Positions 3,374 through 15,498 of a stretch of DNA of 64,000 nucleotides are shown here, piece by piece. The notes under the pieces are model-generated. The model was not told the DNA's origin and searched no databases. It worked only from the letters and a program-made list of their open reading frames with translations. Source of the DNA: Actinomycetospora cinnamomea (GTDB lineage Bacteria > Actinomycetota > Actinomycetes > Mycobacteriales > Pseudonocardiaceae); assembly GCF_003096675.1 (NCBI RefSeq), contig NZ_QEKW01000005.1:124001-188000 (forward strand), written 5' to 3'. The stretch's first letter is position 1; every line of letters starts with the position of its first letter. The position numbers were made by a program, and so were the translations under genes.

Positions 3374-4741
3374 GTGACCCGGGCGGCGACGACGGCATCG
3401 GCGGCTCGACTGGCAACCCCGGCGACCCGTTCCCGGCCCCCCGATTCGGTCATCCGTCACCATCCCGGGCGTCCCCGCCGCGTCGCGGTCATCTCGCTGC
3501 ACACCTCGCCGCTGGCCCAGCCCGGCACCGGGGACGCGGGCGGCATGAACGTCTACGTCGTCGAGACCGCTCGCCGGATGGCCCAGCGCGGGGTGCAGGT
3601 CGAGATCTTCACGCGCGCGACGTCGTCGGACCTGCCGCCGGTCGCGGAGCTCGCACCCGGCGTCCTCGTCCGGCACGTCACGGCCGGGCCGTACGGCGGG
3701 CTGGGCAAGGAGGACCTGCCGAGCCAGCTCTGTGCGTTCACCGCCGGGGTGCTGCGCGACGAGGCCCGTCACGAGCCGGGCTGGTACGACGTGGTGCACA
3801 GCCACTACTGGCTCTCGGGCCAGGTCGGCTGGCTGGTGCGCGACCGCTGGGGCGTGCCGTTGGTGCACACCGCCCACACCCTGGCCAAGGTCAAGAACGC
3901 CTCGCTCGCGGCGGGTGACCGCCCGGAGCCCCTGTCGCGCGTGGTCGGCGAGGAGCAGGTGGTCGCCGAGGCGGACCGCCTGGTCACGTCCACCCAGGCC
4001 GAGACCGACGACCTGGTCACCGCCTACGGCGCCTGTCCCGACCGCATCCGCACGATCGCGCCGGGCGTCGACCTGCGGACCTTCACCCCCGACGCCGACC
4101 GGGACGCCGCCCGGGCGGCGCTGGGCATCGGGCCCGACGACGTGGCGCTCGCGTTCGTGGGCCGCATCCAGCCGCTCAAGGCCCCGGACGTGCTGCTGCG
4201 CGCGGCCGCCGCGCTGCTCGGGCGCCGGCCCGGTCTGCGGGGGCGTCTCGTCGTCCTCGTCGTCGGCGGACCGTCGGGCTCCGGGCTCGCCGAGCCGGAG
4301 TCCCTGGTGTCGCTGGCGCGCGAGCTGGGCATCGCCGACGTCGTGCGCTTCCTCCCGCCCCGCGCCGGCGACGAGCTCGCCCGGGTCTACCGTGCGGCCG
4401 ACGCCGTCGCCGTGCCCAGCCATTCGGAGTCCTTCGGGCTCGTCGCCCTCGAGGCGCAGGCCTGCGGCACGCCCGTGGTGGCCGCGGCGGTGGGCGGCCT
4501 GCCCACCGCGGTCGCCCATGACCGCTCCGGCCTGCTCGTGCACGACCACGACCCCGGCCACTGGGCCGACGCCCTGGCGCGCGTGGCCTGTGACCCCGCC
4601 GAGCGCCAGCGCCTCGCCGCCGGCGCCGTCGAGCACGCGACGATGTTCTCCTGGGAGCGAACGGCCGACGCGCTGCTCGCCACCTACGCCGAGGCCTCGC
4701 GTGCGCAGGCCCGCGACCGGACGCGGGGGGTGGCGGTGTGA
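3374..4741 (+). CDS. mshA: D-inositol-3-phosphate glycosyltransferase MshA (mycothiol synthesis)
   Basis: MshA transfers GlcNAc from UDP-GlcNAc to 1D-myo-inositol 3-phosphate, the first committed step to mycothiol, the main actinobacterial thiol. The 455-residue GT4 enzyme has the N-terminal acceptor loop [11 protein letters not shown] at 51-61, [12 protein letters not shown] near 261-272, and the donor-binding E-x7-E pair Glu352/Glu360. Order and length match the family, apart from a variable 30-residue N-terminus. The downstream YbjN gene overlaps it by GTGA, as for Rv0486/Rv0487. The start is set by the TAAGGT hexamer 6 nt upstream. Confidence 0.93.
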
Positions 4742-12493: not shown

Positions 12494-13459
12494 CTATCCG
12501 GCGGTGCCCGCCACCGAGACGTCGAGACCGTGCACGCCGGACACGGAGGTCACCCCGACCAGGTCGTAGACGCGCATCGACGCCGCGCGCCCGGCGGAGC
12601 ACGTCAGCGGAGTCGGCGAGGCGACCCAGCGCTCGCGGACGACGACGGCGATCGTCCCGCGCTCCGGTCCGCCGTCGAGCGTCACCTCGGTGACGCCCTG
12701 CTCGCGGGCCTCGGCGCCGAGGACGCGCAGCGCGTCCACGCCCGGCTCGTCGTACGCCAGGCGCGCGTGGTGCTGCGCGGCCTGCGCGGGCGCGGAGAGG
12801 AACGAGCGGCCGCGCACCCAGGTGGTGTCGACCTCACCGGCGGCGTAGCGCTCGACCACCGCGACGGCCTCGGTGGCCGGCACCCGGCCGAGCACCAGCC
12901 CGTGAGGCAGGAGGACGAGGTTGGCCGCGAAGCGGTCACCGCCCGTGTGCGTGGTCTCCCACGTGCGGTCGGGGTGGGTCATGCTCAGCGCGGCGGCCAC
13001 GGGCCGCCCGCGCATGGCGCAGCACGCGTCGTGGCGGCCGTGGGCGCACACGAGGTAGACGGGCTCCGACGACGGGGTCGTCACGGCCTCGACATCGGCC
13101 AGCGCCGCGGGCAGCTCGTCGGCCGAGGCGACCCGGCCCCAACGGACGGACTCGGCCCCCGGGGTGGTGTCCACCAGCGCGAAGCGGCCGCGGTCGGCCG
13201 CGGGCTCCCCGCGGGCGCGGGAGCGGCGGATGAGCTGGAAGCGGGCGCCGCGGCGGCGGCAGAACGCGTCGATCGCCTCGACGACCTCGGGCGCGTAGCC
13301 CGCGTCGCCGAGCGCCTGGTGACCCCACGGCCCCGGGTGCTCGACGAGCAGCCAGCACCGTGCCGGCGGCGCGGTCGCGACGAACGGGTCGTCGCGCTCG
13401 CGGGCGGCCTCCGAGCAGCGGAACGTCACTGCGGGGACTGCCGGGTCCGACGTGGTCAT
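12494..13459 (-). CDS. sucrase/ferredoxin-like (Suc_Fer) thioredoxin-fold 2Fe-2S protein
   Basis: The 321-residue protein matches the Suc_Fer family of thioredoxin-like [2Fe-2S] ferredoxins. It has VCAHGRHDACCAMRGRP (Cys138, Cys146, Cys147), then HTGGDRFAAN at 171-180 and LPHGLVLGRV. Physiological partners are not known for most members. The ATG at 13459 follows GGGGAG. A 23-bp palindrome 52 nt upstream matches 15 of 19 positions of the DmdR/IdeR iron box, suggesting iron-dependent repression. It lies downstream of the JmjC-type oxygenase on the same strand with a 69-nt gap, so it could also be read through from that gene. Confidence 0.85.
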   Translation of the reverse strand: MTTSDPAVPAVTFRCSEAARERDDPFVATAPPARCWLLVEHPGPWGHQALGDAGYAPEVVEAIDAFCRRRGARFQLIRRSRARGEPAADRGRFALVDTTPGAESVRWGRVASADELPAALADVEAVTTPSSEPVYLVCAHGRHDACCAMRGRPVAAALSMTHPDRTWETTHTGGDRFAANLVLLPHGLVLGRVPATEAVAVVERYAAGEVDTTWVRGRSFLSAPAQAAQHHARLAYDEPGVDALRVLGAEAREQGVTEVTLDGGPERGTIAVVVRERWVASPTPLTCSAGRAASMRVYDLVGVTSVSGVHGLDVSVAGTAG

Positions 13460-13510: not shown

Positions 13511-13533
13511 AGTGAGGTGAGGCTGACCTCACT
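13511..13533. promoter_or_regulatory. candidate DmdR/IdeR iron box (or BldD-type palindrome)
   Basis: AGTGAGGT and ACCTCACT form a perfect 8-bp inverted repeat around 7 nt. The inner 19 bases (13513-13531) match the iron-box consensus TTAGGTTAGGCTAACCTAA at 15 positions. The outer AGTGA...TCACT also fits a BldD-like site. It overlaps the end of the oxygenase gene and precedes the Suc_Fer gene by 52 nt. Confidence 0.5.
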
Positions 13534-14842
13534 CCGCGACCAGCACGCCCTCCTTGAGCAGCCGGCGGACGACGACCGCGCCGTCGTCGGGCGGCAGGCC
13601 GGGCAGGCCCCCGGCGGCCACGGGGCCGCCGTCGAGCAGGCGCTCGCAGGCCGCCCGCGTGCCCGCGGGCAGGGTGATGGTGCGGTCGGGGAGCTCGAGG
13701 ACCACGGCCGTGTCGCCGGCGCCGGGCCGGAGTCGGTGGTGCAGGCCCCGGCGCACGCGCACGACCGTGTCGGCGTCGGCCGCCGTGGCCGCCGCGGCCT
13801 GGGCCAGCGGGGCGACGGCCTCCGGGCGGTTGCCGTGCCACACGCGCCGGCGCAGGCTGCGCGCGACGCGCTCGGTGCGCTGCGCGTCGGGCGCGGCGAG
13901 GGTCTCGGCCAGGCGCGCGGCGACGGCCTCGACGTGAGGCGCGAGCGCTGCAGGATCGGCCGCGTCGATCCCCAGCGGCAGCGAACCGCGCAGCTCGGGG
14001 TCGGTCGTCAGGGCGTTCAGCAGCGCGTCGACGACCGCCCAGCGGGTGAGGACGTGGACGCCGATCGTCAGGTGCGCGCTGACCTCGCCCTGCGCCGTGG
14101 CCGAGTGCAGGTAGCCGCGCGGGAGGTAGAGCGCGTCGCCCGGCTCGAGGACCTCGTCGATCAGTGGCTCCTCCGCGGCCCGGGCGGCCACGGCGTCGGC
14201 GTGGTCGTTCCAGGGCTGGGAGCGCAGGGGATCGGGGTGCACCGGCGCGTGGACGTGCCAGCGCTTGGCGCCCGCGACCTGCAGCACGAAGACGTCGTGC
14301 ACGTCGTAGTGCGCCGAGAAGCCCTGGGACGACGCCGGCGTGATGTAGGCGTTGGTCTGGACCGGGTGGCCGAGCTCCGCGGCCAGGTCGGTGACGAGGT
14401 CGGCCACCGGCGCCCAGGTGCGGTGCACGCCCTGGAGCACGACGGTGTGGCCGTCGGCGAACAGCGCGGCGACGCGGTCGTCGCGCACCTGGTCGGACAC
14501 CTCGGCGCCGACACCGCCCTCGCCGGTGAAGTGGCGAGAGTCGACCACTGTGCCCTGCTTCGCGATGCGCAGGAACGGCGTGCGCAATCCGCGCCGTGAG
14601 AGCAGCTCGTCGACGGCGGCGAGGTCGAACAGGTCGCCGAACGCCGCCGGCTGGTCGGCCTCGGCGTGCTTGGCGAGGTCCGCGGCCCGGGAGAGCCGCG
14701 CCTCCCGGCCCCACGCCGCCGAGGCGAAATCGTCGAGGTCGCCGGCGACGACGCGCCGCAGCGCCGGACGGTCGGACCGCCCGGCGCCGCGGTCCCGCCC
14801 GCGATCCGGGGACCGGTCGGCCCCGGGGCTCACGGTGGTCAT
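13529..14842 (-). CDS. JmjC/cupin-4 type Fe(II)/2-oxoglutarate-dependent oxygenase (ribosomal-oxygenase-like)
   Basis: This 437-residue protein belongs to the JmjC cupin group that includes bacterial YcfD and human MINA53/NO66, which hydroxylate Arg or His in proteins. The iron triad is intact: His178 and Asp180 (HYD) and His246 (LPRGYLHSA). Lys193 in KRWHVH is a likely 2-oxoglutarate contact. The C-terminal part looks like a winged-helix extension, ending in a VRRLLKEGVLV helix. The ATG lies 7 nt after the stop of an unusual Gly-Ala-Asp repeat gene, with no clear Shine-Dalgarno, so translation is probably coupled. The likely role, inferred from this pairing, is hydroxylation of the repeat protein. 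Confidence 0.82.
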   Translation of the reverse strand: MTTVSPGADRSPDRGRDRGAGRSDRPALRRVVAGDLDDFASAAWGREARLSRAADLAKHAEADQPAAFGDLFDLAAVDELLSRRGLRTPFLRIAKQGTVVDSRHFTGEGGVGAEVSDQVRDDRVAALFADGHTVVLQGVHRTWAPVADLVTDLAAELGHPVQTNAYITPASSQGFSAHYDVHDVFVLQVAGAKRWHVHAPVHPDPLRSQPWNDHADAVAARAAEEPLIDEVLEPGDALYLPRGYLHSATAQGEVSAHLTIGVHVLTRWAVVDALLNALTTDPELRGSLPLGIDAADPAALAPHVEAVAARLAETLAAPDAQRTERVARSLRRRVWHGNRPEAVAPLAQAAAATAADADTVVRVRRGLHHRLRPGAGDTAVVLELPDRTITLPAGTRAACERLLDGGPVAAGGLPGLPPDDGAVVVRRLLKEGVLVAE

Positions 14843-14849
14843 CGGGTGC

Positions 14850-15299
14850 TCAGGCCCCGCCGTCCGCGCCGCCGTCGGAGCCGCCGCCGCGGGCGCCGCC
14901 GTCGGCGGGGCCGTGGCCGGCCGACCCGTCCGCGCCGCCGTCGGCCGAGTTGCCGAACGCGCCACCGTCCGCCGGGCCGTGGGCCCCACCGTCGGCACCA
15001 CCGTCCGCACCGCCGTCGGCACCACCGTCCGCACCGCCGTCGGCACCGCCGCCGGCCGCGCCACCGTCGGCCGGACCGTGACCGGCACTGCCGTCGGCGC
15101 CACCGTCGGCCCCGCCGTCGGCACCGCCGTCGGCCCCGCCGTCGGCACCGCCGTCGGCACCGCCGCCGGCCGCGCCACCGTCCGCCGGGCCGTGACCCGC
15201 CGCGCCGTCGGCGCCGCCGTCGGCACCCTGGCCGCTGGCCCCGCCGTCGGCCGGACCGTGCCCGCCGCTGCCGCTCGTGGTGATGTCGTCGTCGTTCAC
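14850..15299 (-). CDS. Gly-Ala-Asp repeat protein, putative substrate of the adjacent oxygenase
   Basis: The 149-residue product has extreme composition: almost only Gly, Ala and Asp, plus five His and five Pro, with no Lys, Leu, Glu, Cys, Trp or Tyr. After a 12-residue acidic start (MNDDDITTSGSG) it is built from GAD-type triplets broken by five copies of HGPADGGA (His14, 36, 74, 107, 129). GGAGG 9 nt before GTG 15299 and the tight 7-nt spacing to the oxygenase gene support a real gene. I recognise no family. The short leader, repeat core and neighbouring oxygenase resemble the layout of peptide natural-product precursors; a structural or calcium-binding repeat protein is the alternative. 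Confidence 0.6.
   Translation of the reverse strand: MNDDDITTSGSGGHGPADGGASGQGADGGADGAAGHGPADGGAAGGGADGGADGGADGGADGGADGGADGSAGHGPADGGAAGGGADGGADGGADGGADGGADGGAHGPADGGAFGNSADGGADGSAGHGPADGGARGGGSDGGADGGA
14853..15263. repeat. coding repeat array of HGPADGGA units and GAD triplets
   Basis: The DNA is a long run of near-identical 9-bp GAD-GG units on the minus strand, broken by five HGPADGGA units whose histidines are spaced 22, 38, 33 and 22 residues apart. Such an array should expand and contract by slippage, so copy number probably varies between strains. Confidence 0.7.
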
Positions 15300-15498
15300 G
15301 TCGGATGCCTCCGTGTCGTCGCTGATCCGGGTCCGTCCCCGCGGGTCGCGCGTGGTGGTGCGGCGCCGCGGGAGCCCGAAGGGTGCTCGGCAGTGTCCTC
15401 CGCCGATGCCGCCAGCCGTACCCGGCACGAGGTGATCTCACGCCAAACGGTGGCCGGTGGCGTGGCCTCCGCGCCGAGCCGCTGGCAGGGTCCCCGCC

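Follow-up and report, generated by a model that had tools for sequence, protein, structure and literature searches.

A conserved repeat-peptide gene beside a JmjC oxygenase in Actinomycetota: a candidate peptide-oxidation module

Why should the gene for a small and highly repetitive protein lie directly ahead of an oxygenase gene? A 64,000-nucleotide stretch of Actinomycetospora cinnamomea DNA (RefSeq assembly GCF_003096675.1, contig NZ_QEKW01000005.1, positions 124,001 to 188,000; hereafter the window) encodes a 149-residue Gly-Ala-Asp protein with five HGPADGGA units (14850-15299, GTG start) and, 7 nt downstream of its stop codon, the ATG of a 437-residue Fe(II)/2-oxoglutarate (2OG) oxygenase with the catalytic residues His178, Asp180 and His246 (13529-14842). 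All features given with window coordinates here lie on the reverse strand. This arrangement, noticed in a preliminary description made from the window sequence, was confirmed. The pairing of oxygenase and repeat gene is conserved across the sampled phylum, the catalytic residues are intact throughout, and the type of repeat protein follows the enzyme tree. We narrowly favour the reading that the two genes form a minimal, leader-guided peptide-oxidation module resembling those of the ribosomally synthesised and post-translationally modified peptides (RiPPs).

The oxygenase and the repeat gene are a conserved pair

The window oxygenase matches Pfam family PF08007 (JmjC_2) with an E-value of 3.4e-28 and carries the domain, the HxD...H iron triad and a lysine at position 193, which we take to be the 2OG lysine; it is thus a member of this family. 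Its best matches in the PDB are NO66 (E about 1e-19) and MINA53. His178, Asp180 and His246 are invariant in an alignment of 11 sequences, and the catalytic His, Asp and His together with Lys193 are found in all 124 relatives that are linked to a precursor (124/124).

With the oxygenase as query, matches were obtained in 77 of 200 genomes of the family (E≤1e-20) and, at E≤1e-30, in 85 of 394 genomes of the class and 37 of 296 genomes of the phylum. The family matches are split by a gap, with 40 at E<1e-134 and the remainder at E>1e-52. Sequence was fetched for 61 of the 77 family genomes, 49 of the 85 class genomes and 30 of the 37 phylum genomes, the weaker matches being under-sampled; with ten named loci added, these gave 172 loci, of which 138 are distinct. 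Seven of the named loci, from Actinomycetospora, carry the oxygenase at 85-89% identity. Upstream regions were counted for loci with at least 400 nt of upstream sequence, which excludes L008, L042, L118 and L160 (L118 carries a repeat gene of the DGGA type described below and is included in the 89 loci of that type).

A precursor open reading frame (ORF) lies directly upstream of the oxygenase in all 51 distinct loci at 55% identity or more, in 38 of the 39 at 42-55% and in all four at 38.6-42%; between 30 and 38.6% identity, a repeat or short precursor ORF is found in 30 of 40. The preliminary description proposed a peptide-plus-oxygenase system, which these counts support over a coincidence, and named orthologous oxygenases lacking a repeat ORF as the observation that would speak against it; the 51 closest loci turned out the opposite way. 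As controls, 412 further long genes from these loci were put through the final rule for calling precursors; two matched, one of them by way of the short-type part of the rule, which was derived from the sequences themselves. The rule had been loosened once after it missed real members (e.g. L010, L023 and L097). Among 20 loci fetched from other classes of Actinomycetota, 18 of the 19 with upstream room have a precursor of the acidic type described below. A plasmid collection yielded 29 records with a match to the oxygenase, none reaching 60% identity.

The repeats are probably read as protein

The repeat protein is made up largely of Gly (64), Ala (34) and Asp (25), with five His. It begins with the leader MNDDDITTSG, whose residues 1-10 (15270-15299) include the acidic segment NDDDITT, and continues with HGPADGGA and ADGG repeats; each of its five GPADGGA units is preceded by His. 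It has no Pfam or NCBIfam match at E≤1. High G+C content leaves further frames open across the repeat region, and this is the point in favour of regarding the ORF as untranslated, with the repeats serving as a G+C-rich DNA or RNA element. Against that explanation, which we consider barely credible, stand four kinds of evidence: an excess of mismatches at codon position 3, Shine-Dalgarno signals, a shared leader motif, and protein motifs common to distant genomes.

The codon-position signal was obtained from neighbouring 12-mers selected on DNA. In the window gene 271 of 528 mismatches fall at the third codon position in the Asp frame; across 144 precursors the figure is 21,228 of 36,237, and this position ranks first in 97 of 139 loci, although these counts include overlapping windows and duplicate loci and are not independent. 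Since the mismatches lie mostly at codon position 3, the Asp repeat frame behaves, as judged from sequence, as the protein frame. A Shine-Dalgarno-like GGAGG (15308-15312) stands 8 nt ahead of the GTG start, and for 109 of 117 precursors of types A and B (defined below) a Shine-Dalgarno-like 4-mer stands ahead of a start close to the leader, as against 358 of 2260 random single positions, a comparison that flatters the precursors in that several starts were tried for each. The source genome (5.97 Mb) has 13 matches to the coding pattern for DGGADGGA, nine of them inside the window repeat gene, and none to the reversed pattern used as a control. The other four matches, at two places, were considered as second genomic copies of the repeats and rejected, their frames appearing incidental by eye. 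Conservation, the codon-position signal and the controls likewise rule out a local oddity or a G+C artefact.

The JmjC frame also stays open through the repeats, reading them in antiphase as PTAVPTAG, and this gives a 565-residue ORF (13529-15226). Gene callers could prefer this longer ORF and so hide the repeat gene.

Precursor types follow the enzyme tree

ORFs comparable to the window precursor, found upstream of related oxygenases, fall into three types. Type A (the DGGA type, 89 loci) has GPADGGA and HDGGADGGADSGA repeats in which Asp residues are most often spaced four residues apart. Type B (the acidic type, 28 loci) has DADTQDADGTDQ or TDGDATDGTDGD repeats with an Asp every two to three residues, as in DGDATDGTDGD, and accompanies enzymes at 32-44% identity to that of the window; the upstream ORF of L062 is classed here by rule though its core (ADNDPSDPVL) differs. 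Type C (the short type, seven loci) consists of an ORF of 41-51 residues with AVDRGKANGA, which in six of the seven has DNDGND at or near its end; the enzymes are at 32-37% identity and form one family clade. The type C loci (L063-L066 and L068-L070), each with JmjC and Suc_Fer genes, possibly make a separate peptide product.

Precursor type tracks the enzyme tree. There are 11 label changes, compared with a mean of 46.0 when labels are shuffled, and none of 200 shuffles came as low; the tree was built by a quick method with some deep joins unsure, and the labels "none" and "edge" are included. Taken singly, the labels change four times for type A, six for type B and once for type C. This bears on a rival explanation, that the enzyme is an ordinary ribosomal oxygenase (ROX) and the repeat protein its regulator, chaperone or decoy. 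Membership of JmjC_2 and the nearest PDB matches, which are ROX enzymes, speak for it, as does the ROX architecture as given in PMC6006756. A ribosomal substrate would, however, leave the partner ORF beside nearly all close relatives unexplained; shifts in precursor type parallel the enzyme tree, and the layout of leader and repeats looks like that of a substrate. We regard a purely ribosomal role as decidedly unlikely, and the precursor as very probably the substrate of the adjoining oxygenase.

The acidic leader proposed in the preliminary description recurs among the relatives. Written as [LIVM]-x(1-2)-[DE]-[DES]-[DE](optional)-[IMVT]-x-[TSV] and scored within the first 30 residues, the motif is present in 63 of the 89 precursors of type A and 21 of the 28 of type B, as against shuffled means of 0.9 and 1.3. 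The DDDI-type motif is missing from the type A precursors of L136, L137, L139, L141 and L147, all members of one clade, which keep both the GPADGGA/DGGADGG repeats and the enzyme.

Aspartate as the likelier target

The preliminary description offered two candidate targets, the His found at a fixed place in every window repeat and the many Asp residues. Asp is present in the cores of all three types; His as a fixed target is not supported. The residue preceding GPAD is His in 95 of 200 cases and Glu in 102, and His is lacking altogether in the cores of seven of the 89 type A precursors, 25 of the 28 of type B and all seven of type C. These numbers weigh on the explanation that the enzyme hydroxylates His in the repeats as MINA53 and NO66 do. 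The kinship to these two His hydroxylases, the His in all five window repeats and the retention of some His in 82 of 89 type A cores argue for such a reaction, and the last of these keeps His a candidate within type A; the frequent Glu and the His-free type B and C cores, accompanied by the same enzyme family, argue against it, and we hold it to be improbable. Asp is, on balance, the likelier main target. Because the His, Asp, His and Lys193 residues are kept in all 124 linked enzymes and Asp occurs in every type, a single chemistry on this shared residue is the simplest reading.

That chemistry is probably hydroxylation. The alternative that the enzyme goes beyond alcohols, to desaturation or to cross-links or macrocycles between repeat units, has in its favour that long, regular arrays supply neighbouring partners, and that the reference list of PMC12710340 contains a title on macrocyclisation by an alpha-ketoglutarate-dependent dioxygenase in RiPPs. 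Nothing in the present analysis indicates cross-links. Cys, Lys and Tyr, the usual cross-link partners, are outside the 12 commonest residues of type A cores, each at less than 1%; the presence of Ser (5%), Thr (3%) and His (3%) makes the argument from cross-link partners a weak one. We think this alternative quite improbable, less likely even than His hydroxylation.

A Suc_Fer-like gene as usual third member

The preliminary description did not include a third gene, nor the breadth of the system. Downstream of the window oxygenase lies a gene for a Suc_Fer-like, iron-sulfur-type protein (12494-13459; the ORF is open from 13498 and its likely start is the ATG at 13459), which matches PF06999 with an E-value of 6.9e-17 and 62.6 bits (cut-off 34.9). 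This family presumably carries an iron-sulfur cluster. Within 700 nt downstream of the oxygenase, and in the same orientation, a Suc_Fer-like gene was seen at 78 of 89 type A loci, 26 of 28 type B loci and all seven type C loci, and at 3 of the 14 loci with no called precursor. Cys151, Cys159, Cys160 and His184 are conserved in 114 of 114 of these proteins, and Cys28 in all 111 that are aligned there.

The wider neighbourhood was surveyed over 3.5 kb on each side of 72 loci with a crude gene caller, which evidently misses genes, since it recovered the oxygenase in only 63 of the 72 and the Suc_Fer-like gene in only 48. Within that survey we found no further conserved family and no protease or exporter conserved with the module; many, though not all, RiPP clusters contain one or the other. 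The next cluster of neighbours (15 loci) consists of miscalled antisense frames, 14 of the 15 lying over the oxygenase/Suc_Fer region, and all remaining families occur in eight or fewer of the 72 loci. No graspetide synthetase was seen among the conserved neighbour clusters, inspected by eye, or among three neighbours in the window, no dedicated ATP-grasp search having been made.

The proposed module

Taken together, these results suggest the following scheme. The Asp-rich repeat precursor, with its short acidic leader and tandem core, would be the dedicated substrate of the adjoining JmjC_2 oxygenase. The leader would dock on the oxygenase, possibly on its C-terminal domain (approximately residues 355-437; 13529-13780), which is a candidate leader-binding domain, possibly a winged helix. 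The JmjC site would then oxidise core residues repeat after repeat, the likeliest reaction being beta-hydroxylation of Asp in A-D-G, D-A-D and T-D-G contexts, to give a poly-beta-hydroxyaspartyl peptide. The Suc_Fer-like protein would probably serve to maintain the oxygenase iron in the ferrous state, or to reduce iron that the product handles. As no conserved exporter or protease was found, the modified peptide probably stays and acts in the cell. At the sequence level there is an encoded precursor, with leader and core, beside a modifying enzyme, as in RiPPs, which makes the module a candidate member of that class.

Several observations weigh against this scheme. Eleven of the 134 loci with upstream room have no precursor by the rule, L163 being counted among them despite a plausible one. 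The acidic leader motif is found in none of the seven type C precursors, and several type A precursors of one clade (e.g. L136, L137, L141 and L147) lack it. At 11 of 89 type A loci and 2 of 28 type B loci, the search for a downstream Suc_Fer-like gene gave nothing. Regarding the docking site, the C-terminal domain is at best a putative RiPP recognition element (RRE), a winged helix of bbb-aaa topology that many, though not all, RiPP enzymes carry: a Pfam scan of four such domains gave no PqqD match, and the domain has no significant profile match in the PDB. A winged-helix-type match, HTH_IclR, was above the cut-off in one of the four, a type C relative. The persistence of some His in most type A cores, noted above, also counts here, as does the fact that NO66 and MINA53, the nearest solved relatives, hydroxylate His with narrow selectivity, as stated in PMC9994133.

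Relation to known systems

NO66 (RIOX1), MINA53 (RIOX2) and YcfD share with the window enzyme the JmjC catalytic domain and the HxD...H triad. They act on ribosomal proteins, whereas here a precursor gene stands beside nearly all close relatives; we know of no neighbouring repeat-peptide gene for any of the three. The ROX architecture includes a C-terminal winged-helix domain, according to PMC6006756, and PMC12710340 describes JmjC (PF08007) proteins of fish and algae that have RRE-like folds, along with bacterial homologues whose surroundings are RiPP-like.

Hydroxylation of ribosomal precursors by JmjC or cupin enzymes is already known, as are repeat precursors with a 2OG oxygenase and Asp beta-hydroxylation in RiPPs. 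According to PMC12707348 and PMC12257519, BipG and PbsQ, like the enzyme proposed here, are JmjC-type or cupin 2OG oxygenases that act on a ribosomal precursor; they hydroxylate ornithine in the short core of biphenomycin-type RiPP precursors, as one step in pathways that also involve a multinuclear non-haem iron-dependent oxidative enzyme (MNIO), an arginase, a B12-dependent radical S-adenosylmethionine (SAM) enzyme and a protease. By contrast, the oxygenase here is the only conserved modifying enzyme found, has a Suc_Fer-like partner and faces a long Asp-repeat core. Corallotide, as presented in PMC13097080, is a graspetide whose precursor bears five repeated motifs and receives a modification on each repeat that includes hydroxylation by a 2OG oxygenase; its formation first requires a graspetide synthetase and a Lys isopeptide, and no such synthetase was seen as a conserved neighbour here. 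The same source gives SmaO, from a graspetide cluster, as a case of Asp beta-hydroxylation in a RiPP precursor. The TvgA poly-cyclopropylglycine system, described in PMC11002830, likewise combines a repeat precursor with a small cluster that includes an iron/2OG enzyme, and differs in using radical SAM chemistry on Val in TVGG repeats.

What we did not find described is a system, widespread in a phylum, in which a long Asp-repeat precursor and a Suc_Fer-like protein accompany a JmjC enzyme and no second modifying enzyme was found conserved. The statement of the preliminary description that it knew of no system of this form agrees with our searches: neither a description of the module nor the string DGGADGG occurs in the literature searched, from which subscription papers were largely absent. 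Provided that the precursor is in fact modified, the genes would form a very simple peptide-modification operon of one precursor, one oxygenase and usually one iron-sulfur-type partner, present in Pseudonocardiaceae and in further classes of the phylum. Many actinobacterial JmjC/cupin genes that bear only the name of their fold would thereby acquire a function, and bacterial relatives of the ribosomal oxygenases a likely native, non-ribosomal substrate. The DGGA, DADT and TDGD types would provide a natural series of repeat substrates for studying multi-site JmjC action and leader recognition.

A possible link to iron

A palindrome, TGAGGTCAGCCTCACCTCA (13513-13531), overlaps the oxygenase stop codon upstream of the Suc_Fer-like gene, and we take it to resemble a DtxR/IdeR iron box. 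With up to five mismatches the iron-box consensus matches eight places in the 1.28 Mb of fetched sequence, which includes duplicate loci, and all eight lie just past an oxygenase: the window copy (L011), L001 and six of the seven type C loci (L063, L065, L066 and L068-L070). In these six the TTAGGTATGCCTAA core starts 13 nt beyond the first nucleotide of the oxygenase stop codon, the L066 box having been matched in a shifted register. The Suc_Fer match starts further downstream of the box in five of them; in L070 it starts 38 nt before the box, which may lie in or just before the coding sequence. Weaker boxes, with six to eight mismatches, were seen at four other Actinomycetospora loci (L003, L004, L005 and L007). 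The iron box was rejected as a general feature of the module, its close matches being confined to Actinomycetospora and the short-type clade, and a dyad search for a universal operator in the upstream regions of 88 type A and 28 type B precursors gave nothing convincing.

Hydroxyaspartate binds iron in known siderophore chemistry. By analogy, one may speculate that the modified peptide binds iron, in a phylum-wide, largely intracellular poly-beta-hydroxyaspartate system: through a dedicated JmjC oxygenase, Asp residues by the tens would become hard, bidentate ligands for iron, which the Suc_Fer-like reductase, placed in some lineages under an iron-box-like element, would load or release. We regard this extension as unlikely, if less so than the rival chemistries above. 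To our knowledge, an iron buffer or sensor built on a peptide and linked to O2 and 2OG has not been described.

Neighbouring genes and related loci

Divergent from and upstream of the window module are a gene of the histidine phosphatase superfamily (His_Phos_1), a phosphoglycerate mutase as judged by eye, and a sensor histidine kinase gene.

Some more distant relatives have other surroundings. Three JmjC relatives (L061, L062 and L173) have a 48-residue leader/core ORF with ADNDPSDP-like units. L173, a Streptomyces clavuligerus plasmid relative at 37.5% identity, has the matching leader LEPDEIEV in its 48-residue ORF and annotated S9 peptidase and ATP-binding cassette (ABC) transporter genes near the oxygenase, and looks like a conventional RiPP cluster. 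On another Streptomyces plasmid (L174), a 52-residue ORF ending in GRSDGND (3760-3918 of that locus) lies directly upstream of a JmjC relative, and the region continues with aldo/keto reductase and phosphotransferase genes. In L053, a JmjC relative at 34% identity comes directly after an ORF that by eye resembles part of a thiopeptide/lanthipeptide dehydratase and is followed by a luciferase-like ORF; this may be another peptide cluster.

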